DNA of 64,000 nucleotides from Winogradskyella wichelsiae (GTDB lineage Bacteria; Bacteroidota; Bacteroidia; Flavobacteriales; Flavobacteriaceae). The stretch covers positions 744,001 to 808,000 of the forward strand of contig NZ_JABFDJ010000002.1 of assembly GCF_013403925.1 (NCBI RefSeq), written 5' to 3'. Under the pieces are notes generated by a model. The model searched no databases, was not told the origin of the DNA, and saw nothing but the letters and a program-made list of their open reading frames with translations. Positions 44,716-58,848 of this stretch are shown one piece after another. Each line of letters opens with the position of its first letter. The stretch's first letter is position 1. A program made the translations under genes and the position numbers.

Positions 44716-45645
44716 TTGTTTAGAACTAATCTAAATAATAGTGAAATGAATTTAGAAAAAACGAATTCAGAAAGTATCGCTAAAGGTACTTTTGAAGAAA
44801 CATATTTGGAAGATGGATTTTTTATATTAACACATAAAAATGAAAATGACACCATTGAAATTCTTGAACGCAAGATAGATAGTAGTTACATTCAATTTCA
44901 TTTTTGTAACAAGGGAACTGCTGCTTTTGTGTTTAATGACGGGCGTTATACTTTAAATATAAACGAAGAAACTTCTTTGCTGCTTTATAATCCAGAACGT
45001 GATTTACCTATCCATCTAGAATTACAGCCTCATTCTTGGTTGGTGTCGTTAGTCATTTCTATTAAAAAATTTCATGGTTTGTTTTCTCAAGATGCTAATT
45101 ATGTGACTTTCTTAATGGATGATAATAAAGATAAAAAGTATTATAAAGATGGGAAAATTTCACCTTCAATGGCTGTTGTTTTAAATCAGTTAATTAGTTT
45201 TAATCTTAATAATTCTATTAAATCATTGTATTTTAAAGGTAAAGCTTACGAGTTGTTGAGTCTATTTTTTAATAGAAGTGAAGATGCAGATATTGAACAA
45301 TGTCCGTTTTTAGTAGATGAGGTTAATGTCGCTAAACTGAAAAAGGCAAAAGATATTATTATTGCTAATATGTCAGAGCCGCCAAGTTTGCAAGAATTAG
45401 CAGATGAAATAGATCTGAGCTTAAAAAAATTGAAAGAAGGTTTTAAGCAGATTTATGGCGATTCGGTTTTTAGTTTTCTATTCGATTATAAAATGGAAGT
45501 GGCACGTAAACTTTTAGAATCTGGTGATTATAATGTAAATGAAGTTGGATTAAGAGTGGGTTACAGCACAGGAAGCCATTTTATTGCGGCTTTTAAAAAG
45601 AAATTTGGGACGACGCCTAAGAAGTATATAACGGCTTCTAGTTGA
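44716..45645 (+). CDS. AraC-family transcriptional regulator
   Basis: 309 residues: an N-terminal cupin-like sensing region (about 30-180) and two C-terminal HTH motifs (about 215-305; LQELADEIDLSLKKLKEGFKQ and VNEVGLRVGYSTGSHFIAAF) ending in FGTTPKKYITASS. A second Met at 44746 (MNLEKTN) is an alternative start. It is divergent from hemA and convergent with the outer membrane barrel gene 36 bases away. Its 3' end is duplicated twice in the next 8 kb. A role in heme/iron or in control of the barrel-GLPGLI genes is inference from position. Confidence 0.9.
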   Translation: MFRTNLNNSEMNLEKTNSESIAKGTFEETYLEDGFFILTHKNENDTIEILERKIDSSYIQFHFCNKGTAAFVFNDGRYTLNINEETSLLLYNPERDLPIHLELQPHSWLVSLVISIKKFHGLFSQDANYVTFLMDDNKDKKYYKDGKISPSMAVVLNQLISFNLNNSIKSLYFKGKAYELLSLFFNRSEDADIEQCPFLVDEVNVAKLKKAKDIIIANMSEPPSLQELADEIDLSLKKLKEGFKQIYGDSVFSFLFDYKMEVARKLLESGDYNVNEVGLRVGYSTGSHFIAAFKKKFGTTPKKYITASS

Positions 45646-45681
45646 AAAGCGAAATGATTAAAAATTACTTAGTTTCTCAAA

Positions 45682-48354
45682 TTACAAGTTATAGCCAACG
45701 CTAAACATAATAATGCGAGGTAAAATATAAGTCTTACTATCTGAAATTAGATAATCAGAAAAACTATTACTTTGTTTAAATTCTTCATTAAATAGGTTTT
45801 GACTCGTGATTTTAAAAGACCAAGCGCTATTCTCTCTTTTGTATGATAAAGATGTATTTGCAATTTGATAGTCGTTTTTTTGAGCCAAATCTTTGTTGTT
45901 ATAAATGTTTTTACTGTATTCAAAATTGAATATAAAACCATCAAGAAAATAGTAATCTATTTTTGAAAAAGGTACTGTAGTTACAAATTTAGAAGTTGTA
46001 CTGTTAGATGTAAATCGACTAATATCCTGTTTTAAACCGATTTCTATGGTTGGAAACTTTTCAAAGAGCGTTTCTAAACCCAATTCATAATTATAACTTG
46101 TATTTCTGTTTGTTTCAATAGTATTATCTACCTCTTGTTTGAAGTTTGACTTGTTGTATCCTACATTAAATTTAGATTTTATGTTTTTAATATCTTTTTC
46201 TAAGTGAATGTTAGCCGTAAAATCTTCAGAAGCGTTATTAAATAGTTTGGCACTTATAAATTGATTAATTTGTTGAGAGACGTTTGGATTGGAAGAATCA
46301 AAAACAACAGTATTCTTTACACCTCTAATTTGCTTGTTATAGCTAATGTTTGCAAACAGCAATAAACCTCTGTACAAGCTAAACCGACTGTATCTTGCGT
46401 TAAGCGAATGAAATAAGTTGTTTTCTAAATTCTCATTTCCTCTAAAAACAGAATTATAAGATTGTAAATAAAACTGATTTGCAAAGCGATTAGTATCAGA
46501 GAATGTTGTTTTTAAGTTGTAATTCAGTTGAATTTTTCTAGATTTATTAAAGTCGATTTTAGCTAAAAAATCTGGTAACACAATCCATTTATTTTTGTGA
46601 ATCTTAGTTTGTTGATTTACGTTCCAATTATAATTGTGTAAAAAGGCACCTTGCTTAAAAGTAAAAATACCTGTTCTAAATTTATAATGTATTCCTGCAA
46701 AGGCATCGTTTAATTTAAAATCTAGATTATTATTGAAACCATCAGATTGAAAATTATTTTCATCGCCATTATCTAATATTTGTTGGTCTGTAGTAAGGAA
46801 ATTCTCTGCTAAAAGTTTATTGCCGAGTGTGGTATATATGTGGTTACTCTTGTTAATTTCCCAGTAATATTTAAAGATACCATCAAAATTTTGCTGTTGC
46901 GTGTCTCTATCTTGGTTAAGACGTATTAAATCTTGACTATTATCTGTTGGAATTAATCCTTGTAGAATTGGATCTTGTGTAGACCAAAAGTTATTTCTGT
47001 CGGTTGAATCGAATACATAATTGATAACAGCTGAAAACGTATGGTGTTTAGATTTTCTTTTGTGCCACTCTACATTTTGGTTTAAAAAAGTAGCCGTTAA
47101 ATTTCTGTTTGTATTTATGTTATTAGTATTGTTTGAGACAATTGTTGCTAAATTATCGTTATTAGTTGTATTTGTTCTTTTTATTTGGGTTCTCGCATGC
47201 CACCATTCTGATGCGTTTGGCACATATTCTAAATTAAGGTTTGTTATACCTAATAAATTTTGAGCATTTGTTTTATTGGTTTTCTCTTCTGTATAGGTTG
47301 TATATTCATTAAAATCCTCAACAAAATTGTTGGTATCACTATCTGAAAGAATTATATAACCAGAAATATCTAATTTTGAGGAAGCTGTTTTAGTAATGTT
47401 TAAAGCACCAAATTTTTGTGTGCTTGTTAAGACATCTCTATTGTCCATAAATTGAGAAAAGTCGCCTCCACGGAAATTAAAATTACCTTTAAAAACAGCA
47501 TTTACACCACCAGAAAAACTAAGATAATCTTTAAAGGACATTGTCTCTTCACCTATGTTATTAATATTACCGATAAAATTTATATTGATTTTTGGTGCAT
47601 AATAAAAGAGGTTTGCACTTGTTTTATAAAAATCGTTATTGCCTATTCCAGCAGATATATCACCAAAAGTAAATCGGTTTTTATCTTTTTTTAGTTTAAT
47701 ATTCATAGCCATTTCATCAGAATCTGTTAAACTCTTTAAAAAGGCGATTTCATTATAATTATCAATGACTTCTATATCTCCAATTGCATTTGCAGGAATG
47801 TTGTTTACGGCTAATTTAGAGTTGCCACCGAAAAATTTTTTTCCATCCACTAGCATGGCAGTAACTTTTTTGCCAAATACAGTTACAGTACCATCTCTAG
47901 ATACTTCTACACCAGGTAGTTTATGGAGAACGTTTCTTAATTTGCGCTCAGACCCATTAACAAATTTATCTGTTTTGTAGGTTGTAGTATCGCCTTTTAC
48001 AGTTATTGGCATTTCTATGACGACCGCACTTAATTGTTCAGTTGATTGTTTTAAAACAATATTCTTTTGAAGCGTTTTTGAGGCTACAAATTGAAAGTTA
48101 GCGGTCTTATATCCTAAATACGAGATACTGATATTTACCGTATCTTCTTTAGTCAATTGTAATTTGTAAAACCCTTCACTATCTGATACTGAAAATTTTA
48201 GATTTTTTGAAATGTCATTAGGCTTAGCTATAACGTTGGCTAGAGATATAGGATTATTGAGACTATCTGTAACTTTCCCTGATAAGGTTATGTTTTGGGC
48301 AAATAAATTGGTAGTAAACAATAATAATAAAATAAAGATATAGTCTATTTTCAT
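45682..48354 (-). CDS. Outer membrane beta-barrel protein with carboxypeptidase-like and plug domains (module 1)
   Basis: Signal peptide MKIDYIFILLLLFTTNLFAQ, carboxypeptidase-regulatory-like domain (about 24-100), a plug-like domain with LRNVLHKLPGVEVSRDGTVT and VTAMLVDGKKFFGGN, then a large Asn-rich barrel ending PRIIMFSVGYNL. This TonB-receptor-related type is common in Bacteroidota beside GLPGLI genes. The longest frame starts at 48399, but the signal peptide begins at 48354, giving 890 residues. A GLPGLI gene and a miniprotein gene lie upstream in the same direction. Substrate unknown. Confidence 0.88.
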   Translation of the reverse strand: MKIDYIFILLLLFTTNLFAQNITLSGKVTDSLNNPISLANVIAKPNDISKNLKFSVSDSEGFYKLQLTKEDTVNISISYLGYKTANFQFVASKTLQKNIVLKQSTEQLSAVVIEMPITVKGDTTTYKTDKFVNGSERKLRNVLHKLPGVEVSRDGTVTVFGKKVTAMLVDGKKFFGGNSKLAVNNIPANAIGDIEVIDNYNEIAFLKSLTDSDEMAMNIKLKKDKNRFTFGDISAGIGNNDFYKTSANLFYYAPKININFIGNINNIGEETMSFKDYLSFSGGVNAVFKGNFNFRGGDFSQFMDNRDVLTSTQKFGALNITKTASSKLDISGYIILSDSDTNNFVEDFNEYTTYTEEKTNKTNAQNLLGITNLNLEYVPNASEWWHARTQIKRTNTTNNDNLATIVSNNTNNINTNRNLTATFLNQNVEWHKRKSKHHTFSAVINYVFDSTDRNNFWSTQDPILQGLIPTDNSQDLIRLNQDRDTQQQNFDGIFKYYWEINKSNHIYTTLGNKLLAENFLTTDQQILDNGDENNFQSDGFNNNLDFKLNDAFAGIHYKFRTGIFTFKQGAFLHNYNWNVNQQTKIHKNKWIVLPDFLAKIDFNKSRKIQLNYNLKTTFSDTNRFANQFYLQSYNSVFRGNENLENNLFHSLNARYSRFSLYRGLLLFANISYNKQIRGVKNTVVFDSSNPNVSQQINQFISAKLFNNASEDFTANIHLEKDIKNIKSKFNVGYNKSNFKQEVDNTIETNRNTSYNYELGLETLFEKFPTIEIGLKQDISRFTSNSTTSKFVTTVPFSKIDYYFLDGFIFNFEYSKNIYNNKDLAQKNDYQIANTSLSYKRENSAWSFKITSQNLFNEEFKQSNSFSDYLISDSKTYILPRIIMFSVGYNL

Positions 48355-48464
48355 TGAAATCACCTTAATTTTTGTCTTAAACTGCACACGCGGGAACATT
48401 CTAATTACTTTTTTAAAAATCGAAATTTAGAATGAAAAATGGATAAGCCAATCTAATTTATTAA

Positions 48465-49205
48465 CTAATTGTTGCCAAATACTTTACGTTTAGCTTTTTC
48501 GATAATTTCTACATATTCTTCATAAGTAACTACCTTTCCTTTCGTTGGAGCTTTTACTTTAACCTTTTTTTTAGGATTAAGTTCTATTTTAGTAACCTTA
48601 AAGGTGGTTTTACCTAGGTCTAATTCTAAAATTAATCCAGGTAAACCATATTCGCCTTTTGGTCCAAAGTTTAAAGGTAAGGCTGGTGCGTACCAAGCAA
48701 TAACTTTGCCTTTACTTCTCGTGGCTTTAAAAGCTGTATAGCCATTTATTATTTTAGATTCTTGTGTTAATTTCCACTCTAAATTTGGATTAGGATAAAT
48801 AAAGCAATCACCTGTAGTTTCACAGTTTTTTATTAAATATTTATCCTCTTTAGTATTATAGTAATATTCATTAGATCCACCTGCACCTGTTCTCGCTATT
48901 TTTTGCCCAAAATCAGTTTCATCTATATTTAAGCTAGTTTCTACTTTGTACAAACCTTCTCCATTATTAAATTCAATGGTCGATAATGTAGGTGTTGTAT
49001 TGAGAAATACTGCATCCATCCCTTGTATCATAAATTCACCTTTCTGCTGTTTGCTTAAAGAGTCTCTTTTTTTTAAGTAATTATCTTTTGCTTTTTTACT
49101 TATTGTAGATTCGTAATGAATAATGCCGGAAAGGTTATCTTGTGCGTTTAAAGTCAATGAAATGACAAATGAGGCAATAACTATTATTGATTTTAAATGT
49201 TTCAT
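48465..49205 (-). CDS. GLPGLI family protein (module 1)
   Basis: 246 residues with a signal peptide (1-21) and the family-naming motif YGLPGLILEL at about 197-206, preceded by the usual AWYAPALPLNFGPKGE stretch. One Cys pair (CETTGDC) may form a disulfide. GLPGLI proteins are found only in Bacteroidota-type genomes, often with outer membrane barrels; function is unknown. It lies between the miniprotein gene (65-base gap) and the barrel gene (110-base gap), all on the minus strand. Confidence 0.9.
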   Translation of the reverse strand: MKHLKSIIVIASFVISLTLNAQDNLSGIIHYESTISKKAKDNYLKKRDSLSKQQKGEFMIQGMDAVFLNTTPTLSTIEFNNGEGLYKVETSLNIDETDFGQKIARTGAGGSNEYYYNTKEDKYLIKNCETTGDCFIYPNPNLEWKLTQESKIINGYTAFKATRSKGKVIAWYAPALPLNFGPKGEYGLPGLILELDLGKTTFKVTKIELNPKKKVKVKAPTKGKVVTYEEYVEIIEKAKRKVFGNN

Positions 49206-49270
49206 ATATTTTTTAAAAAATAATCTAGAGGCTATTAACCTCTAGATATAATTGATATAAGACTTTACGA

Positions 49271-49534
49271 TTAGCAACCTTCCATACATAAAGCATATAA
49301 TGCAGTATAGTTTTCCATTAGTTCTCCACCTGCACCTCTATCGTCGTGGTCTTCGGATATTAATAATGCAACGTGTCTTGCTGCCGCGTTACAATCACTA
49401 GCACAACCAAAATCATCTTCAGATTGTATGGTTTCGTTATTTACTATGGTTTCTTCTTTTTCTATTGAATTAGCATTCATAAAAGTAGCACCTATAGCTA
49501 ATGTAAAAACTAGACTTAAAAATAATTTTCTCAT
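49271..49534 (-). CDS. Secreted twin-CX3C miniprotein
   Basis: 87-residue precursor with a clear signal peptide (MRKLFLSLVFTLAIGATFMNANS). The mature part has exactly four cysteines arranged as CASDC (44-48) and CMEGC (83-87), i.e. two CX3C motifs 34 residues apart, each probably on a helix. This suits a disulfide-stapled helical hairpin or a metal site. The last residue is Cys. No family recognised. A plausible promoter lies 60-90 bases upstream, and the GLPGLI and barrel genes follow in the same direction, so it is probably exported and used with them. It could instead be a modified peptide precursor. Confidence 0.75.
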   Translation of the reverse strand: MRKLFLSLVFTLAIGATFMNANSIEKEETIVNNETIQSEDDFGCASDCNAAARHVALLISEDHDDRGAGGELMENYTALYALCMEGC

Positions 49535-49592
49535 AATTTAAATTGTTTCAATAACCCTAATTTAGTTAAGGTTGGATTAATAATTAATTATG

Positions 49593-49624
49593 CAAAGATT
49601 TTAGCAAAGAGAAAATATAGCAAA
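49593..49624 (-). promoter_or_regulatory. Promoter of the miniprotein-GLPGLI-barrel operon
   Basis: Minus-strand TTTG (49624-49621), 20 bases, then AATCTTTG (49600-49593), one mismatch to TAnnTTTG. Leader of about 55 bases to the miniprotein start. Confidence 0.45.
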
Positions 49625-49793
49625 GTGTGCAAAGAAAAAATAAACCAACGCTGGTTTTTGGTATCAATACCTGTTCAAAAAACGACTTAAATGCCTTTGC
49701 TTTACATTTTTATAATCTTTCGAACAGCGTGAATCTAAAAAAAAAATAGAATAAATCAAATAAAAAATAGGTTTTTTTTTGAAATAAAACCTA

Positions 49794-49832
49794 TTACGGT
49801 TTTTCCGTAATACTACTGTGGTAAAACCGTAA
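49794..49832. promoter_or_regulatory. Inverted TTACGGTTTTnCC operator-like element
   Basis: TTACGGTTTTTCC (49794-49806) faces GGTAAAACCGTAA (49820-49832) across 13 bases. The first copy extends to a local palindrome TTACGG-TTTTT-CCGTAA. The same 13-mer occurs upstream of the subtilase gene at 20711. It is probably a regulator binding site about 170 bases before the miniprotein promoter. The rest of 49535-49975 shows no gene. Confidence 0.5.
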
Positions 49833-49975
49833 GTGCTAACCTAAAATAATTGAAAATTTAACAATTTTAGATTATGATTTTCCTGAGAATTATATTAAAC
49901 AACGGTTAATAATCATTATCATTTCTAATTGGTGTAACACGTTGGTAATATTTATGGTTTAAAGAAAAAACTTAT

Positions 49976-50166
49976 AAGAATTAGCAGATGAAATAGATCT
50001 CAGCTTAAAAAAAATGGAAGTCGCACGTAAGCTTTTAGAATCTTATGATTACAATGTAAACGAAGTTGGATTACGCGTAGGTTACAGCACAGGAAGCCAT
50101 TTTATTGCGGCTTTTAAGAAGAAATTTGGGACGACGCCTAAGAAGTATATAACGGCTTCTAGTTAG
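49976..50166 (+). pseudogene. araC 3'-end fragment, copy B
   Basis: Matches 45392-45645 of the intact AraC-type gene except for a 63-base in-frame deletion (21 codons) flanked by A-runs. A TAA precedes the homology immediately, so only the ATG at 50014 could start it (50 codons). From that ATG the copy differs at 7 synonymous codons and one missense codon (Gly to Tyr), keeping the second HTH intact. This points to past purifying selection in a full-length paralog, later truncated. It ends 3 bases before the stop of the module 2 barrel, just as the intact gene ends 36 bases before the module 1 barrel. Confidence 0.85.
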
Positions 50167-50169
50167 GTT

Positions 50170-50934
50170 TTAGAACCTATATTCTAGTTTTAATAGTACA
50201 TGTCTTGGTAGTAACCTATATTCGGTGGAAGAAGAGCCAATATCGGTTATTGAGAATGTTCTGTATGTTTCAGTATTAAAAAGGTTTTTACCGGTTAAAC
50301 CCAGAGATAGTTTGCTTTTTATGAGTTGGTATCTGGCATCAATATCTAAGAAATAATACGTGTTATCCGTTGTTTGTATATTTCCAAAATAATAACGCTC
50401 AGATTGAAGCTGCACATCAAATTTATCATTGAAAACAAATGTTAAGTCTAAAAAACTTTCATTGTTAGTATAAGCGTTATTAATTGTAGTTTCTATTTCG
50501 TTTGTTGTCCATTTTGTACCTATATGGTAGTTGAAGACACCTTTAAAACCTGAACGTAATTCTATGCCGTAATTATAATTATTAGAGGTTATGGTTCTTA
50601 GGTCTGAATTATTTACAATGTTTTTAAATTCGCTTTTAGAGTAGCCTAAATCTAGTTTTAAATTAGAAGATATAAACTTAAAATAATAATCAAGTTTAGA
50701 ATTTATACTTATAAACGCTCGGTCTTTTATTAGTATTTGTCGCGATTGGGTAAAATTTTGTTCAATATTTGTATTCGTAGAAAAGAAATCGTGATTTTTA
50801 CTGTACAAAATAAATGTATTTGCAAAAAAGCGATCGCTCCAATTACCCAATTGATAATTAAACGACATACTAGAGGCATCTAATTGATTAAAACTACTAG
50901 TGCCAGTAGAAAACGATCTAAAACTAGTAAGCAC
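50170..50934 (-). CDS. Barrel C-terminal fragment (module 2, part 3)
   Basis: 254-codon open frame, GTG first, covering the last strands of the barrel and ending PRHVLLKLEYRF, a typical terminal outer membrane strand. No signal peptide, so it cannot function alone. Confidence 0.6.
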   Translation of the reverse strand: MLTSFRSFSTGTSSFNQLDASSMSFNYQLGNWSDRFFANTFILYSKNHDFFSTNTNIEQNFTQSRQILIKDRAFISINSKLDYYFKFISSNLKLDLGYSKSEFKNIVNNSDLRTITSNNYNYGIELRSGFKGVFNYHIGTKWTTNEIETTINNAYTNNESFLDLTFVFNDKFDVQLQSERYYFGNIQTTDNTYYFLDIDARYQLIKSKLSLGLTGKNLFNTETYRTFSITDIGSSSTEYRLLPRHVLLKLEYRF

Positions 50935-50941
50935 AAAGTTG

Positions 50942-51640
50942 TTATATATCTAAAATTGTTGCATTTGTAGTATTATAAGAATACGATGAAGTAATTTTGT
51001 TTTTATCATTTATTTTCCAATCTAGTCCTATGCTTGGGTTAAGAAAGAAAGGGTTTTGGCTCTCTGAGCTATTCCTGAAGTCTAATTGATTAAAAAGCTG
51101 ATGTATGTTTAATTTTCCTGTGAGTCCAAAATCGCCTATTTTATAACGGTATTTGCTTTTTATATACAAATCATTAACAGTATAGGTGGTATTGTTTTGG
51201 TAATTTATGGGTTGTTCTAAAGTAGTATCATTTTCTAAGATTGAAAACTCAGTATTTAATTTGTCTTTTCGATATTCATTACCAAATTGAAGTTCTAATA
51301 AGTTCCCATTAGGTTTTCTATCTAATAAATGTGCGCTTACACCTGCAAATTGCATTTGGTTAGTGCTTTGTTGTTTTACGTTGTTTGCATTGGTTGCATC
51401 TGGAAATAAATCTTGATAAAAAAATTGGTTGATACTATAATTTTGTGGTGATTTTTCTTGAGTAAAGTGACCTGTAAGTAAAAAGACTTTTTTATCTGTA
51501 AATTTATTGGTGTAATTGATTTTTTGATCAAATAATGTATTTTGATGCTTTAGATTTTCTATTGTAGAATTCTCGTTAAAGATTAAATTAGAGCCATCAT
51601 TATAATTGCCACTATTAAACTTTGTGGTGGCTTCTAACAT
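50942..51640 (-). CDS. Barrel middle fragment (module 2, part 2)
   Basis: 232-codon frame with mid-barrel strands (NQMQFAGVSAHLLDRKPNGNLLE region). Its reading frame is open upstream of the Met at 51640 into break 1, as expected for a piece of a longer gene. It has no export signal. Confidence 0.6.
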   Translation of the reverse strand: MLEATTKFNSGNYNDGSNLIFNENSTIENLKHQNTLFDQKINYTNKFTDKKVFLLTGHFTQEKSPQNYSINQFFYQDLFPDATNANNVKQQSTNQMQFAGVSAHLLDRKPNGNLLELQFGNEYRKDKLNTEFSILENDTTLEQPINYQNNTTYTVNDLYIKSKYRYKIGDFGLTGKLNIHQLFNQLDFRNSSESQNPFFLNPSIGLDWKINDKNKITSSYSYNTTNATILDI

Positions 51641-51702
51641 TTTGGTTTTAGATATGTTGTAAGTTAAATCTAGCTTGCCAAATGCAATTCTTTTTTTACT
51701 TC

Positions 51703-52827
51703 TTAGTTTGTAAAGTTGGTGTTGTTTGCATTGACATTATCAATTTTATTTCTGTAAAAATCGGTTTCATCCCAATTAAAAAAGCCTAATGTTTTTATTT
51801 TTAGTTTCTCAGTAGGATTAAATATAGCATTTAATGAAACCAGTTCTGCATTATTAAAATTGGTTCTGCTACGTTTAAAATTTAAGCTACCAGCAGATAA
51901 ATTCAATAAACTACTAACGTGTTGGTTGTCTCCGATACTTGATGGTTCATTAGAACGAAAAGGTCTAATAAGGTTTTGAATATCTCCTGTGGTATCATAA
52001 CCAACACTGTTGCCATTGGCTAAAAAAAAGTATTTATTTTTTTTACCAAAATTCATAAGGTTGCCCTTTAGTTGGTAGAAACCATCATTACCAATACCTA
52101 ATTCTGCATTACCAAACCAAATACGTTTAGCATCTTCTTTTAGCTTCAAATTTAAAGCTATTTTATTGCTTTCTTCAATGTCTTTTAGTAACCGATTGTT
52201 TGAGTAGCGTTTTAATACCTCAACCTCTTCTATAGGATAGGCAGACATATTTTTTGACAATATTTTATAGCCTTTCTCAAAAAGATCGTCTCCATCAATC
52301 ATAAGTTTCTCAATTTCTTGATTGCCTACTTTAATTATGCCGTTACTATCTACATTTAATCCTGGAATTTTTTTTAATAGGTCTTCTACCGTTTGTTCTG
52401 TGCCATTAGTAAAGAATCTAGTTTTAAAAAGGATGGTGTCTTTAAGGATAGAAATAGGTTTTTCTGCACGGATAATTACTTCTTTTAAATCTATGGGCTG
52501 TTCTTCTAATTTGATATCTAAGTTAAGATGGCTTTGATTTTTTAAAACAGTAATGGAAATGATTTTGGTTTTATAGCCAAGGGAGGAAAACGAAAGTTTA
52601 AAATGACCGTATTGGTTAGTGGTTAATTTATAGTTTCCATTTTGATCTAAAAATGTATATCCAATAGTTGAAGAGCCAAGAGAATCTTTTAGAATGATAC
52701 TTGCTGAAGGAATTGAATTTCCATTTTTTTCTTTAACAAATCCTGAAATAATTGTTTGAGAAAAAATGAGACTATTAAAAGTTAATAAAATAAATAGAAT
52801 TAGTTCTTTTTTTCCTCTTCTTCCCAT
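51703..52827 (-). CDS. Barrel N-terminal fragment (module 2, part 1)
   Basis: 374 codons: signal peptide (LFILLTFNSLIFSQ), carboxypeptidase-like domain, and a plug-like domain with VEDLLKKIPGLNVDSNG and EKLMIDGDDLFEKG, parallel to module 1. The start overlaps the 3' end of the GLPGLI gene by 28 bases. It stops at break 1 before the barrel is complete. If expressed it would be an exported plug without a full barrel. Confidence 0.65.
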   Translation of the reverse strand: MGRRGKKELILFILLTFNSLIFSQTIISGFVKEKNGNSIPSASIILKDSLGSSTIGYTFLDQNGNYKLTTNQYGHFKLSFSSLGYKTKIISITVLKNQSHLNLDIKLEEQPIDLKEVIIRAEKPISILKDTILFKTRFFTNGTEQTVEDLLKKIPGLNVDSNGIIKVGNQEIEKLMIDGDDLFEKGYKILSKNMSAYPIEEVEVLKRYSNNRLLKDIEESNKIALNLKLKEDAKRIWFGNAELGIGNDGFYQLKGNLMNFGKKNKYFFLANGNSVGYDTTGDIQNLIRPFRSNEPSSIGDNQHVSSLLNLSAGSLNFKRSRTNFNNAELVSLNAIFNPTEKLKIKTLGFFNWDETDFYRNKIDNVNANNTNFTN

Positions 52828-53606
52828 TCAAATTTAATTTCAAAACCTGTTCTTAGTGTCTTCATTTGAGTTACTTGGACTCCTTTGGGTAGCTTGCTTG
52901 CCATTTTTTTATACTGATTATCGTTGTTAAACTTTCTATCGGCATATTGTTTTATTGTTAGAGTCTCTTTCCCTTTTAAAATAGGCTTTAAGTCTAAAGC
53001 CGTTTCTTCAGTTTGTTTGATTGAATTTACTTGCCAATGGTAACGTTTAGTTGTGTCATATACTTCCATAATTAGCCCTGGTAAACCACTAAATTTCCAC
53101 GGTCCGTAAGGTAAAGGATACTCTTCCGAATACCATGCAATATAATTTCTACCCCTAAAGTATAAAGTTGCTTTTTTTAAAAGGTACTTATCAAGCATTT
53201 TTTCTTCATCATGAATTTCCCATTTCAATTGTGGGATATTTTCTTCTACTATGAATTGTTCAGAAAATAAATTGATTCTTGATATAAGGGTATCTTTATT
53301 GAAATCTTGGTAAAAAACTTTTTTCTTTCCTGCGGAAAATAAATCATATTCCGTGTTTTCCCCGTCACTTTGTTTTATGCTAGATTCTGTATTTTTCCCG
53401 TACATGAACATGGACTTTTTTCTCGAGCTATCTAAATATAAAATGCCTTTTTGTGTGGTTGGTCTTTCGGTATTAAAGGAGATTGTATATTCTATTTCAA
53501 CATCATAATTAATATTCTGTGCATAGGTAATATGAGTAATGATATAAAAAAGGATTATTGAATAAGAAATTATTTTCATGTAATTTAAACGATTAAGGTT
53601 TGTCAA
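52800..53606 (-). CDS. GLPGLI family protein (module 2)
   Basis: 268 residues, signal peptide at about 10-29 (IIHIT..TYAQ), and the family motif FSGLPGLIMEVYD at about 166-178 after IAWYSEEYPLPYGPWK. It resembles the module 1 protein in layout but is clearly diverged. The frame appears intact although the cotranscribed barrel gene is broken. Its start lies only about 16 bases from araC fragment C, which points away from it. The N-terminus could also begin at the second Met (MKIISYS). Confidence 0.88.
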   Translation of the reverse strand: MTNLNRLNYMKIISYSIILFYIITHITYAQNINYDVEIEYTISFNTERPTTQKGILYLDSSRKKSMFMYGKNTESSIKQSDGENTEYDLFSAGKKKVFYQDFNKDTLISRINLFSEQFIVEENIPQLKWEIHDEEKMLDKYLLKKATLYFRGRNYIAWYSEEYPLPYGPWKFSGLPGLIMEVYDTTKRYHWQVNSIKQTEETALDLKPILKGKETLTIKQYADRKFNNDNQYKKMASKLPKGVQVTQMKTLRTGFEIKFEWEEEEKKN

Positions 53607-53621
53607 TCAGGCGCTTCAATC

Positions 53622-53843
53622 ATTGAAAAAATGAAAGAAGGTTTTAAGTAGATTTATGGCGACTCAGTTTTTAGTTTTCTATTCGATTATAAAATGAAAG
53701 TGGCACGCAAACTTTTAGAATCTGATGATTATAATGTCAATGAAGTTGGGCTAAGAGTGGGTTACAGCACTGGAAGCCATTTTATAGCAACTTTTAAAAA
53801 GAAGTTCTAAGCCTAAGAAGTATATATAGCAGCTTCTAGTTAA
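53622..53843 (+). pseudogene. araC 3'-end fragment, copy C
   Basis: Related to the 3' end of the intact AraC-type gene and retaining the 63 bases missing from copy B. It has a CAG-to-TAG nonsense change (FK-stop-IYGDSV), and a small deletion near the end that turns KKKFGTTPKK into KKKF-stop. B and C therefore decayed independently. Its end overlaps the stop of the convergent small membrane gene at 53840. Confidence 0.85.
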
Positions 53844-54091
53844 CGAAGTAAATTGTTGGTTTTAACTTGAGATAATGCGTAATGTTTTATTAAATAACTA
53901 ACACTTCCTATAAAAGGTAAACCTAAAATTATTGCTACCCAAATTAAAAACTTAAAAGTACTCTCGTTTTTTGATGCTAAAACTAAGCTTGTAATAATCA
54001 TTACGACTAGTAATGTTCCCATAAAAATAATTTGCATTGGTGAAATAAAAAGCATATTTTTTGGTTTAGTTGATTTAAGGTGAAAGTACAA
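53840..54091 (-). CDS. Small two-helix membrane protein (PLDc_N-like)
   Basis: 83 codons with two TM helices (about 18-40 and 48-68). The second, WVAIILGLPFIGSVSYLIKHY, resembles the N-terminal membrane segment of cardiolipin synthase-type proteins (PLDc_N), where small stand-alone forms are common. The Met at 54055 (MLFISPMQ) is an equally likely start, giving 71 residues. It lies 8 bases after the TraB/GumN gene in the same direction. Confidence 0.7.
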   Translation of the reverse strand: MYFHLKSTKPKNMLFISPMQIIFMGTLLVVMIITSLVLASKNESTFKFLIWVAIILGLPFIGSVSYLIKHYALSQVKTNNLLR

Positions 54092-54099
54092 ATTAAATC

Positions 54100-57000
54100 T
54101 TAGTAATCATAATACCCATCACCACCGATAGCTCTAACACGTTGTCTGTCTTTATATATAGCAAGATTTAAGATTTCAGTATACTGCTCTTTTAACTCTT
54201 TTGTTTTGTCTACCATAGTACCATAGGTTTCTGATTGAGAATAGTAATTCACTACCAATTCATTTGGGTTTTTTGGTTTTATAAAAGAGATATAATGTAA
54301 AATCTCTAATTTGCCAGAATACTCATCGTCTTTATCTATTTTAAAGAAATACATTTCTGCATTTTTCCCCTTGTCAGTTGTAAAATCACGTTTAAGAATA
54401 AAAGTAATTGAATCTTTTTCCTTCTCATAATTGGCATCTGATAAGAGTTTAGATTTTGCAAATTGCTGTTGGTTAATTCCAATAGATTTAATTTTGTTTA
54501 AAAGCTTTTCTTCGTCTAATTCTTCTAAAAGTAAATATTGGTTTTCTTCGTTATCTACGAGTATTTCGTTCAGCTTTTCTGGTATGGTTTCTTTTGCTTG
54601 AGATAGTAATACGTAATATTTTACCAAAGCGTAAGCGTCATCTACATTCAATAATTTTTCAAAGAAATCTTTTGCCTTACGTTCATTCCTGTAAGGAAAA
54701 ATTAAGCGTACATAAGTAGATAAATCACTAGAGTAAGTATTGTATCCATAATTATAGTTTCCTAGGTTTCGCTTAATTTCCACTTTAGCGTCATTAATCA
54801 ACTGATTTTTATATTTTTTATATGTTCTTTGTTTTACTAAGCCACTATCTTTTACTTTAGCGAGTAGAGTATATAGTGGTTGTTTGTATTCTTCTATGGT
54901 TGAGTATTCTAGTATTTTGGGAAACAAAGAAGCTTTAAGCGCTAAAGAATCTTTACCGTTGTAATTGTAAAACATGCTGCTAACACTTCCTAAAGGTAAA
55001 TCGCGTTCCATAAGTTCTAGAGCAATTTTATAGGATGCTTTATTATTAGAGTCTAATAAACCTTCTAATATTGAGGTTTGTGTTTGTGGATCGGAGTAAC
55101 TATTAATATATAATTGTTTTATAAAAGGTATATTATTCTTTAAATCTATAGTAATAAGTTGTTCTACAAGATGAGATTTTATGTTTAGACGATCTTTGTC
55201 AAATTGAAAATCTTTTAAAACCGAAATAATGTCTTTGCTGTTGTGTTTTTTGAATTTTACTAAGTCGTAAGCTTCTATAACAATACTGTCATTAGACCTC
55301 AGGGCTTCAAAAAATAAATTAGTTTTATCTTTTAAAACACTTTTGCCTAATAAGGTATCTTTTGGGGTGAAGGAATTATAAAATTCTGTTACAAATTTTG
55401 AAGGCCCACTTATAGAATCAATCAAAGTTTTTAGTTCATACAGAACTCCTTCTTTCAATATATTTTTAACTAACACTTGCTTGGCACTCGCAGAATCTGA
55501 ATATGTAAAATTGTGAGTATAAATAGCACCTGTTTTTGAAGACGAACGATTACCGATATTAAATTTTTTCTCTGGAATATAATAACGCGACATATAATTT
55601 ACTTTCTCTTCTAAGTTTTTCCAAAGGCTATCTGTATTATGAAACATTTGTAAATCGTGAAACTTAGTTCTGGAGACTGTAATTTGTTCGTTAGCATTGG
55701 TAGAATAAACTGTTTCGTTCATTGTTTGCTCATAATCTTTATGCCTTGTGGTATTGTTGTAGTTATAAGGGTTTGGTAATGGCGCTTTTCCGTTGGTATT
55801 TACTGAGAAGTATAGCGATGTATCGATTACTGTTTTAAAATTGGTATAATCGGTTTTGTTGAATTTAAAAGATTTAAAAAAGGCAGTTTTATCGGCATCA
55901 TTAGTACCAACGTAACCTAATAAATAATAACTACCATCTTTTGCTATGGTTTTTAAATGAAGTTTTTTATTTGTTGAAGAGTCTAAAAGGGCATAAGATT
56001 CATAATTCTTGTAATTGCCAGCTTTAAATCCCCCTTTAGCTTCTGAAAGCTTATAGTTTTTATATAAAGCATGATGAAAATATTTAGCTTCAAAGCTATC
56101 TTCTTCAATATAAGAGAGGTCGTTTAATACCGCTTCTTCCAAAAAATAATAGGCATCATCTTTATAACCTTCAAGTAGTTTTTTACCATAATTATTCATG
56201 TTACTAGAGGTATAATAATTAGGAAAATTTACTTGAAATTTTTTTTCTGGAGATACAAATAATTGTGTGGTGTTTGAGAGTGTCTTTAAGTCAATAGAAT
56301 TAAAAACGTCACCTTCATGTTTTAATACAAAATCACTTCGACCTGCAAATTTTATAATAATGATTTCTAAAGGTGTTTCGTAAATATGATATTTCTGAAA
56401 CTCGCCTTTTTTAGTCTTATTAACGATGCTTATACCTGGATAAGGTTTTTTTAATTTATCCTTTTTTATAATATCCCCGGGGATATCTTCATATAGTAGA
56501 TTGTCAATATCTTTTAAGGTGATATTAGATTTTTCGTTTGGTAAATATCTAAAGCGGCTAATTCTATTAATGGTTAAGTAAGCACCATTAGTCATGTCTG
56601 GGTCTAAATAATATTTTTGTCCACCATAAGAAAACTCACGTAATTCATCGTAGGTGTTAATGCTTAAAAACCCATCTGGTGTGGTGTGTTTTTTAAGTGT
56701 TGGCGCTATAAATAAACTGTCTAATTTTGTTTTTTCTGTCTTACTGTAATTAGTTTGTTTAGATATTAGTGCCTCTACAGTATAGCCTCTTTTTCGCAAC
56801 AGATTAATCATGCCTTGGTCACCTGGTAAATGAGCTGCTCCAACACCTGCAAAAACAGACTTGGTTGGCATTAGTTTATCTAAAGAAACCACCATATTTT
56901 CATTACGGATGTAAAGCATGTTTTCTCTAAAGAATTTTGTGTTTACACCAGCTCCAATAGAATCTAATAAATCTAAATTGCGATCGCGATAAAGGTTTTC

Positions 57001-57606
57001 TTGAATTAAATAAGGATTCTCTTGAGCGTATAATTTTTGAATCCACGGCTCTAGTTCTTTTTTGTTAGCATTATAGGCTGCTTTTGTGGTAAGGTATCTC
57101 GATTCTTCTAAGTCTTCTAAAGCATATATTTCTTTGTTATTTTTCTTTCCCGCTTGAAAAATAAACATGTCTAAATAAGTCTCTTCTTCAAAATTATCTG
57201 ACGTATTACTTTTTCTGTATAAATAGGTATTTATAGCGTTATTATCCATTCTTACAGAACCTCTAATTGTCATTTCTTCAGGATGTATTAGCTTAAATGC
57301 ATTGGCATAAAAATCATCATTATAATCGTTGTAAGCAGCTATTTGATTTAACATGGTTGCATGATTAAATTCAGGCCACGTTGTAGGATCAGATTCTAAA
57401 GCAATACAGTCACTTTGGTCTAAAGCTTTATAGAACACATCATCGAGTCTAAAGGCTACTTTTTTGCTGACATGCATTGTGCCATATAGATAAGATGGTT
57501 TTTGTAATCCATTTCCGGTAATCTTCCAAAGTAGACTCTGATATTGTTGTTGTGAGAAAGCAAAAGCGGTAAATAAAACAAGAATTATAGAAGCGGTTTT
57601 TTTCAT
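54100..57606 (-). CDS. TraB/GumN-family protein with a ~850-residue C-terminal extension
   Basis: Signal peptide (1-18, FAFSQ), then a TraB/GumN domain (about 20-285) with its two hallmark motifs GTMH (42-45) and GVGAAHLPGD (about 254-263). Ordinary GumN proteins stop near residue 290-300. Here about 850 more residues follow: a beta-rich stretch (about 300-620) and then an alpha-helical, repeat-like stretch (about 740-1080) resembling HEAT-like pairs. TraB/Tiki relatives include metalloproteases, but bacterial activity is unproven. The exported product presumably works in the periplasm. It is in one transcript with a small membrane protein. Confidence 0.82.
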   Translation of the reverse strand: MKKTASIILVLFTAFAFSQQQYQSLLWKITGNGLQKPSYLYGTMHVSKKVAFRLDDVFYKALDQSDCIALESDPTTWPEFNHATMLNQIAAYNDYNDDFYANAFKLIHPEEMTIRGSVRMDNNAINTYLYRKSNTSDNFEEETYLDMFIFQAGKKNNKEIYALEDLEESRYLTTKAAYNANKKELEPWIQKLYAQENPYLIQENLYRDRNLDLLDSIGAGVNTKFFRENMLYIRNENMVVSLDKLMPTKSVFAGVGAAHLPGDQGMINLLRKRGYTVEALISKQTNYSKTEKTKLDSLFIAPTLKKHTTPDGFLSINTYDELREFSYGGQKYYLDPDMTNGAYLTINRISRFRYLPNEKSNITLKDIDNLLYEDIPGDIIKKDKLKKPYPGISIVNKTKKGEFQKYHIYETPLEIIIIKFAGRSDFVLKHEGDVFNSIDLKTLSNTTQLFVSPEKKFQVNFPNYYTSSNMNNYGKKLLEGYKDDAYYFLEEAVLNDLSYIEEDSFEAKYFHHALYKNYKLSEAKGGFKAGNYKNYESYALLDSSTNKKLHLKTIAKDGSYYLLGYVGTNDADKTAFFKSFKFNKTDYTNFKTVIDTSLYFSVNTNGKAPLPNPYNYNNTTRHKDYEQTMNETVYSTNANEQITVSRTKFHDLQMFHNTDSLWKNLEEKVNYMSRYYIPEKKFNIGNRSSSKTGAIYTHNFTYSDSASAKQVLVKNILKEGVLYELKTLIDSISGPSKFVTEFYNSFTPKDTLLGKSVLKDKTNLFFEALRSNDSIVIEAYDLVKFKKHNSKDIISVLKDFQFDKDRLNIKSHLVEQLITIDLKNNIPFIKQLYINSYSDPQTQTSILEGLLDSNNKASYKIALELMERDLPLGSVSSMFYNYNGKDSLALKASLFPKILEYSTIEEYKQPLYTLLAKVKDSGLVKQRTYKKYKNQLINDAKVEIKRNLGNYNYGYNTYSSDLSTYVRLIFPYRNERKAKDFFEKLLNVDDAYALVKYYVLLSQAKETIPEKLNEILVDNEENQYLLLEELDEEKLLNKIKSIGINQQQFAKSKLLSDANYEKEKDSITFILKRDFTTDKGKNAEMYFFKIDKDDEYSGKLEILHYISFIKPKNPNELVVNYYSQSETYGTMVDKTKELKEQYTEILNLAIYKDRQRVRAIGGDGYYDY

Positions 57607-57825: not shown

Positions 57826-58848
57826 ATGGCAAAAGGAATTTTATTAGTCAATTTGGGTTCACCAGAGAGTCCAAATCCTAAAGATGTTAAGAAATATCTT
57901 GGGGAATTTTTAATGGATGAGCGTGTTATTGATGTACCGCTTTGGGCTAGAACGCTATTGGTAAAAGGTATTATTTTAAATACACGACCAAAAGCATCTG
58001 CAGCGGCATACAAGAAAATTTGGTGGGAAGATGGTTCGCCTTTAATTGTGTTATCTGAACGACTTCAAGAAAAAGTTCAGGAACAGGTAGAATATCCTAT
58101 CGCATTAGCCATGCGTTATGGTAGTATGACGATTAAAAAAGGCTTACAAGAATTAGTCGATAAAGGTGTTGATGAGGTCTTTTTAGTGCCACTATATCCT
58201 CAATTTGCTATGGCAACGACCGAAACTATTTTGGTATTGGCTGAAGAGATAAGACAAGAACATTTTCCTCAGTTAAAATTTTCTGATTTAAAAGCATTTT
58301 ATAATAATCCAGAATATATCGAAGTACTTTCTAATAGTATTTCGAGAAGTATTGAAGGAAAAGATATCGATCATTTATTGTTTTCTTATCATGGAGTTCC
58401 TGAACGACACATTAGAAAAAGTGATGTTACAAAATCGCATTGTAAAATTGATGGAAGTTGTTGTGCAACGGCATCTAAAGCACATGAGTTTTGTTACAGA
58501 CATCAATGTAAAGAGGTAACACGTTTGGTTGGGGAGCATCTTAAATTGAAAGAGGGAACATACTCTACCAGTTTTCAATCGCGATTAGGTTTCGATCCAT
58601 GGTTAAGACCTTATACAGATAGAACCATTGAGCGTTTTGGAAAAGAAGGCATTAAGAAAATGGCTATTGTAACGCCTGCATTTGTTAGTGATTGTCTTGA
58701 GACTTTAGAAGAAATTGCTATGGAAGGTGAAGAGATTTTTCACGAAATGGGAGGAAAGGAATTTTCTACAGTTCCATGTTTAAATGATGATGCCGAATGG
58801 GTTAGTCTTTTAGCAAAATGGATTAATGAATGGGCAACTTCTAAATAG
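57826..58848 (+). CDS. hemH: Ferrochelatase
   Basis: Inserts Fe2+ into protoporphyrin IX (or coproporphyrin III in other lineages). Catalytic His189 is in SYHGVPERH, and the C-terminal acid cluster is represented by CLETLEEIAMEGEE. A Cys set (CKIDGSCC..CYRHQC, about 206-226) in the middle could hold a [2Fe-2S] cluster or disulfides. Length 340 is standard. It heads a plus operon with a MATE transporter (12-base gap) and HemJ, completing the heme pathway that begins at hemA. Confidence 0.96.
   Translation: MAKGILLVNLGSPESPNPKDVKKYLGEFLMDERVIDVPLWARTLLVKGIILNTRPKASAAAYKKIWWEDGSPLIVLSERLQEKVQEQVEYPIALAMRYGSMTIKKGLQELVDKGVDEVFLVPLYPQFAMATTETILVLAEEIRQEHFPQLKFSDLKAFYNNPEYIEVLSNSISRSIEGKDIDHLLFSYHGVPERHIRKSDVTKSHCKIDGSCCATASKAHEFCYRHQCKEVTRLVGEHLKLKEGTYSTSFQSRLGFDPWLRPYTDRTIERFGKEGIKKMAIVTPAFVSDCLETLEEIAMEGEEIFHEMGGKEFSTVPCLNDDAEWVSLLAKWINEWATSK

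Follow-up and report, generated by a model that had tools for sequence, protein, structure and literature searches.

We analysed a 64,000-nt stretch (hereafter the window, to which all positions refer) of the 3.9-Mb genome of Winogradskyella wichelsiae. In it, an intact araC gene (44716–45645, plus strand), coding for an AraC-family regulator, is followed by two accessory cassettes and by two displaced copies of its own 3' end. The likely explanation, judged from sequence comparison, is that the cassettes entered successively at the 3' end of this core gene, each supplying a new 3' end while the previous one was displaced. The array would then appear to record module swapping and not duplicated regulator–operon units. 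The order behind intact araC was cassette 1, remnant B, cassette 2, remnant C, an 83-amino-acid (aa) open reading frame (ORF) and a TraB/GumN-family gene (traB). A preliminary description of this DNA had listed the same features and had noted that araC, B and C border two modules of an outer-membrane barrel gene and a GLPGLI gene; both observations held. We compared the locus with those of other genomes of the genus, mostly draft assemblies. Genomes are denoted G (the window's own is G000) and loci L (G063 = L035, G003 = L036, G022 = L054, G032 = L056).

The right part of the array has a close counterpart elsewhere. From B rightward to traB, the window matched the insert of G063 at 95.7% identity over 4,024 columns, and G063 carries cassette 2 and C without cassette 1. 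Remnant B (49976–50166, plus strand) joins barrel 2 (50170–52827, minus strand) in the same way as does intact araC in G063 and G003. The window is therefore best described as a G063-like locus to which cassette 1 has been added. Cassette 1 ends on the right at junction J1 (49975–49976), which recurs in G003 (89% over 528 aligned columns). There, the promoter region of cassette 1 and J1 precede a remnant that is joined natively to traB, yet the body in front of them is that of cassette 2. Since the window and G003 share these flanks around different bodies, the bodies have been exchanged between them, which bears out the earlier suggestion that the modules are swappable. In G003, G022, G020 and G016, the remnant meets traB by a native-type junction and the intact araC has another end. 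The right junctions of cassette 2 differ between G063 and G003. Homologous left ends together with variable right ends fit homologous recombination combined with one-sided illegitimate joining. The last 75 nt of araC were identical only in the window and G016 among 68 loci, and cassette 1 follows in both. Within the last 25 nt, araC of G016 differs from that of G028 at –25, –16, –7 and –2, each time carrying the base of the window. Identity between G016 and G028 also changes sharply at the araC end, from 97.0% to its left (2,661 columns) to 86.5% (3,693) and then 83.2% (8,843) to its right.

Both remnants clearly derive from araC, as had been proposed, and are not parts of unrelated AraC genes. 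BLAST within the window gave E = 4e-62 for B and 1e-72 for C, far beyond chance; at E ≤ 0.001, the araC end had no other match elsewhere in the genome. B spans araC nt 677–928 with a 63-bp in-frame deletion (matching nt 677–721 and 775–928). C (53622–53843, plus strand) corresponds to nt 706–928 at 88% identity and contains several stops. The described abutment with convergent genes was also seen: the B stop lies 3 nt from the barrel 2 stop, and that of C overlaps the stop of the 83-aa ORF. One separate assembly, G003, has the left junction of B, and another, G063, has the C junction, so neither remnant is an assembly artefact; the array is a genuine product of the lineage.

From the ATG at 50014, araC and B differ at seven synonymous sense codons and one missense codon, as noted before, and in the stop codon as well. 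This had been taken as a sign that B was once a complete gene under selection. However, the ends of the two intact araC genes, in G063 and in the window, also differ at seven synonymous and no missense codons, so the pattern reflects two working genes. By this comparison, it is what one would expect of 3' ends from two working araC genes, and a former third gene is not required. Nor did any remnant found start further upstream than about codon 203–226. The sequence AAAATGGAAG is present twice in the G003 remnant, at a spacing close to the 63-bp deletion of B; the intact araC of the window differs at the first place. Loss between two such repeats would explain the deletion. Constraint on the araC 3' end was discarded as the cause of its similarity, for synonymous codon diversity is not lower there: per ten codons it was 0.34–0.47 in codons 221–310 and 0.32–0.59 in codons 31–220. 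This count used 48 of 68 rows; 12 were dropped for another length or the lack of a projected start and 8 for a stop in the projected frame.

The araC gene itself is a core gene of the genus. The HTH_18 (E = 2.8e-18) and HTH_AraC (7.4e-7) domains were both above cut-off, confirming an AraC-type DNA-binding domain. A full-length ortholog was present in 67 of 68 Winogradskyella genomes; for the remaining one, G050, whose assembly is 79% complete, only a distant match was obtained. The left neighbour was hemA in 66 of the 67 araC loci (the G044 contig begins at araC), and the right neighbour was traB or hemH, again in 66 (the G047 contig stops there). The gap from araC to traB was < 60 nt in 23 loci, 60–149 nt in 2 and ≥ 150 nt in 23; that to hemH was 60–149 nt in 14 and ≥ 150 nt in 4. 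The 23 loci with araC ending < 60 nt from traB are empty sites, and in several of these genomes the two stops overlap. This constant neighbourhood, together with the empty sites, means that araC is not part of the barrel–GLPGLI module. In other Flavobacteriaceae, hemA likewise lay to the left of araC among the loci listed, and the right core gene (hemH or traB) was ≤ 100 nt away in 24 of the 47 loci having one. At L168 (Flaviramulus multivorans), a second, nearly whole araC copy (≈ 82% identical to the orthologs) lies directly behind the first.

Extra, varied DNA of at least 150 nt was found behind the araC stop in 27 of the 67 Winogradskyella loci. Displaced araC 3' ends were detected in eight of these filled loci (the window, G063, G003, G022, G020, G034, G016 and G017), the pieces in G020, G034 and G017 being merely 31–65 nt long. 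BLAST placed their left borders at seven different positions of araC: nt ≈ 673–677, 706, 753 or earlier, 776, 853, 878 and 900. A 30-nt inverted match in L079 and a 41-nt inverted match in L152 were dropped as chance. The preliminary description had looked to relatives for an association of araC with barrel and GLPGLI genes. One or both lay beside araC in 7 of 67 loci, so that the association exists, but the remaining 60 have neither. Orthologs of barrel 1 (78–79%) occurred in two other genomes, both at the araC locus. Other cargo comprised a tetratricopeptide repeat lipoprotein, DUF6705, a second helix-turn-helix regulator with lipoproteins, and the 83-aa ORF; some filled loci had no ORF of 45 aa at all. 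In W. marina (G022), a gene for a ParE-type toxin and a putative antitoxin gene occupy the same araC–traB site, along with an araC remnant. The cargo of Winogradskyella and other genera yielded 37 ORFs of ≥ 90 aa (7 of them at L148, a locus for which we found no right flank). Neither the 25 families listed of their 30 Pfam families nor Pfam scans of the window's cassette genes included an integrase or transposase. Defence-system cargo was rejected, as PADLOC gave one weak match (QatA, E = 7e-4) in one of the 37 ORFs. TAA was the stop of intact araC at 20 of 23 empty and 12 of 25 filled sites (Fisher p = 0.006), a difference to which overlap with the traB stop, itself possibly favouring TAA at empty sites, may contribute.

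These observations suggest a mechanism in which the araC 3' end would serve as the point of insertion and exchange. By the route that we infer, incoming DNA carrying an araC end and a cassette would pair with the resident araC, with homologous recombination at the left and illegitimate joining at the right. The result would be a whole araC that terminates in the newly arrived 3' end, then the cassette and, downstream of it, the old 3' end, displaced as a remnant. The remnant would then offer a second homology arm, at which ordinary homologous recombination could later exchange cassettes or stack them. For the window, cassette 2 would have entered first, leaving C, the oldest remnant. Cassette 1 would have followed at the border of araC and cassette 2, together with a right-end junction and a remnant of its own, leaving B as a hybrid. 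The displaced cassette 2 would since have decayed, and cassette 1 would be the youngest. Barrel 2 carries two frameshifts; others lie in barrel 1 of G034 and close to the barrel 2 start in G063. Some of these could be sequencing errors.

Several results weigh against this mechanism. No araC remnant was detected in 19 of the 27 loci with ≥ 150 nt behind araC, and those inserts may have another origin or have lost the remnant. In other genera, none of 28 scanned loci had a 3' remnant (20 of 48 gaps were too short to scan). By nearest neighbour, B showed 93.6% identity to the G063 end, barely above the 92.3% to its own, and in L054 and L057 neither the remnant nor the intact end grouped cleanly with the hemA relatives; such tests on short remnants are noisy and not decisive. 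In the G016–G028 comparison, either side may have been the imported one: at 97%, the left flank lies above both other regions compared, recA (88.2%) and trpS (91.6%). Finally, G032 has cassette 2 without a remnant, though a deletion hides where the insertion ended: in one long open frame, barrel 2 from aa 104 onward runs into a traB truncated at aa 786, and GLPGLI 2 is lacking as well. We had considered G032 as an insertion ending inside traB and dropped it as support, since a later deletion explains it better.

Three other histories were weighed against successive entry. The preliminary description favoured tandem duplication of an araC–barrel–GLPGLI unit, with later decay of two of the regulators. 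Three araC ends in the same geometry and two barrel and two GLPGLI genes of the same families would agree with it, as would the whole second araC in Flaviramulus. However, the two barrels are ≈ 25% identical whereas identity among the araC pieces is 88–94%, a discrepancy hard to reconcile with joint multiplication. Furthermore, 3' ends alone remain in all eight Winogradskyella remnant loci, the large majority of araC loci have no barrel or GLPGLI gene, and G063 has cassette 2 and C but no cassette 1. We regard this duplication as very unlikely.

Genomic islands insert at the ends of tRNA genes or of guaA. If an integrase supplied in trans acted likewise at the araC 3' end, it would keep the araC reading frame and place extra DNA behind its stop, as seen. 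The seven remnant borders reveal no fixed core site (later decay or deletions can blur some of them) and no integrase or transposase was among the families listed for the cargo ORFs, which makes such site-specific insertion improbable. About the same low probability attaches to the reverse history, in which the cassettes are ancestral and the empty sites arose by recombination between araC and remnant. The direct repeats of araC ends that flank the cassettes would make clean loss mechanically easy, and the divergent alleles suggest old age. On the other hand, barrels of type 1 were found at araC in 3 of 68 genomes and those of type 2 in 4 of 68, the cassette 2 right junctions differ between G063 and G003, and the array in the window would still require a gain. 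Successive entry with displacement of the 3' end thus remains the reading that we prefer.

The cargo is a recurring gene triad. In cassette 1, the minus strand codes for an 87-aa miniprotein (49271–49534), GLPGLI 1 (48465–49205, 246 aa) and barrel 1 (45682–48399, 905 aa), the last with a CarboxypepD_reg domain and an inferred outer-membrane barrel. Cassette 2 comprises GLPGLI 2 (52800–53606, minus strand) and barrel 2, which is broken by its frameshifts into the open pieces 50170–50934, 50942–51640 and 51703–52827 (identified with the open 889-aa G003 ortholog as tblastn query). In G003, GLPGLI 2 is preceded by a miniprotein and a promoter region, both of which are absent here. The order miniprotein–GLPGLI–barrel was found at the araC locus in the window, G034 and G003 (miniprotein frameshifted), and elsewhere in the window's own genome (contig C22, 425–434 kb), G051, G064, G017 and G033. 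In the C22 region (425312–434232, L212), miniprotein genes alternate with GLPGLI genes, one of them broken, with an 898-aa barrel at the end and two palindrome pairs.

Both GLPGLI proteins lie far above the TIGR01200 cut-off of 50 bits (152.7 and 142.2 bits; family TIGR01200/PF09697). A structure model of GLPGLI 1 was of modest quality (predicted local distance difference test 62, predicted template modelling score 0.59, from five sequences). With Foldseek, it matched PNGF-II (PNGase F-II, 1.4e-6), LolA (1.5e-3) and RseB (2.2e-3). A sequence search of the PDB with GLPGLI returned only 7zgn at E = 0.033 and one chance match. As to TonB-receptor domains, CarboxypepD_reg was matched, OMP_b-brl_3 was below cut-off in one barrel 2 piece, and no plug model matched. 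The miniprotein of cassette 1 has two Cx3C motifs, a signal peptide judged by eye and a 60% relative in G034; miniproteins had no Pfam or NCBIfam match over cut-off. Nine barrels fell into two main classes, 20–24% identical to each other, with a third class (G017, at araC) standing apart. Class 1 barrels go with Cys-containing acidic miniproteins, helical by eye, and class 2 barrels (G003, G064, G017) with beta-rich miniproteins containing a cysteine pair, also by eye; both pairings were seen in a small number of examples. Such co-variation points to the two being physical partners.

The miniprotein could be a surface or secreted partner or substrate of GLPGLI and barrel: GLPGLI would handle it in the periplasm, and the barrel would carry or display it. 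More tentatively, the cargo may represent an undescribed envelope system, in which a secreted Cys-paired miniprotein would be exported or displayed by a dedicated GLPGLI carrier of LolA/RseB-like fold and a dedicated TonB-receptor-like barrel. It would in several cases be switched via paired palindromes 22 bp apart, and its divergent alleles would be exchanged at a core-gene 3' end like toxin modules. Such exchange, if true, hints that the system may act in competition or in recognition among strains. In the literature searched, we found no description of a recurring miniprotein–GLPGLI–barrel operon with a palindromic control site, and the accessible text of two papers naming GLPGLI assigned it no function.

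A paired palindromic site (49794–49832, minus strand) precedes cassette 1. It consists of TTACGGTTTTTCCGTAA at 49794–49810, located by an exact-site genome scan 259 bp before the miniprotein start, and a weaker copy at 49816–49832, 22 bp away. The exact palindrome TTACGGAAAAACCGTAA occurred three times in the genome, always before a miniprotein–GLPGLI operon; the reversed pattern had no exact occurrence there. Allowing ≤ 2 mismatches, we found 10 sites versus 4 for the reversed control, and 22-bp partners at both other operons were among them. Flanking sequence was also common to the three promoters. Cassette 1 thus has what appears from these similarities to be its own conserved control region, shared with miniprotein–GLPGLI operons at loci without this araC. 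This gives no support to the former proposal that each regulator served one barrel–GLPGLI operon.

The exact palindrome occurred at 68 sites in 45 of the 68 genus genomes, and 46 of those outside the window's own genome were classified by pattern and by eye. Most (26 by pattern, 27 by eye) lay in the interval of tsaE, a 184-aa gene and ald, upstream of the alanine dehydrogenase gene; L245 1528–1544 exemplifies this interval with one mismatch. Four sites preceded miniprotein–GLPGLI operons (G003, G008, G033, G063), of which the pattern search caught three. Three more lay before a barrel gene beside lepA and three beside a histidine kinase/LuxR-type regulator pair; the rest accompanied other genes, often for secreted proteins. 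No palindrome preceded the triad of G064 or that of G017 on contig C77; G051 had it at the tsaE place only. The palindrome is not confined to miniprotein–GLPGLI operons, and its regulator may be a conserved housekeeping factor. In L238, L246, L248 and L262, it lies beside a histidine kinase/LuxR-type response regulator and a BlaI-like/M56 pair (families assigned by eye). These neighbours offer a possible candidate for the palindrome regulator. We found no literature on the palindrome or on PF09697 nor, judging by titles and the openings of abstracts, on this locus.

The araC gene has a different candidate control site. A Fur-box-like palindrome, GTTTAGAACTAATCTAAAT (44718–44736, plus strand), lies between hemA and araC, directly upstream of the likely start ATG 44746, and matches at 16 of 19 positions the Riemerella anatipestifer Fur box consensus ATTTAGAATTATTCTAAAT, as given in the accessible part of PMC5609570. 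We take this ATG as the probable true start because the first codons of the longer frame overlap the conserved palindrome, and in L082 and L086 the upstream frame is interrupted by a stop. At least 15 of 19 positions matched before araC in 114 of 116 loci, and in 19 of the 20 rows listed the site lay within –11 to +3 of the projected araC start. Random 220-nt windows of the locus reached ≥ 15 matches in 40 of 2,000 draws; the site itself may lie partly within some of them. The conserved site suggests that, in the Flavobacteriaceae loci examined, araC encodes an iron-responsive regulator adjacent to genes of heme synthesis.

Two genes close the array on the right. The 83-aa ORF (53840–54091, minus strand) is PLDc_N-like just below cut-off and has relatives directly behind araC in G006, G027 and G020. 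The traB gene (54100–57606, minus strand; PF01963, E = 3e-35) is the right core flank, also of the empty site. Beyond it, the protein of hemH (57826–58848) is 100% identical to that of G063 and 73% to that of G003, though hemA is at 94%, pointing to another recombination break nearby.

The locus offers a readable record, in ordered scars, of accessory envelope operons entering a chromosome without a visible recombinase. The model that it provides can be tested in a genus of which many species have been sequenced, and a recurrent operon family (miniprotein, GLPGLI, barrel) emerges together with a control site. The closest parallel known to us is found in the effector–immunity modules of the type VI secretion system (T6SS) of Vibrio cholerae. 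For these, sequential displacement has been described and orphan Rhs ends have been discussed (Kirchberger et al. 2017, PMC5361080). As far as the accessible text goes, homology-facilitated illegitimate and ordinary homologous recombination were proposed for the immunity arrays, with no integrase known (PMC5361080). Both systems have a constant upstream anchor, a new module at the front and displaced pieces downstream in order of age. Here, a constant 5' anchor with displaced 3' ends downstream was seen in the window and 7 other loci of the 27, and the part right of B, matching the G063 insert, is the older module behind the newer. In contrast to the T6SS arrays, where the anchor is the toxin gene itself, the anchor here is a core regulator that would serve as homology only. 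The convergent cargo operon is independent, with a promoter of its own, and the displaced pieces are not alternative domains. The locus also resembles transfer hotspots without mobile elements, which, according to the available portion of Oliveira et al. (2017, PMC5635113), recombine at flanking core genes. Again, variable cargo lies between fixed core genes, no recombinase was found, and the break is at a flanking core gene. Unlike those hotspots, single events at this locus leave araC 3' scars, from which the order of insertion can be read.

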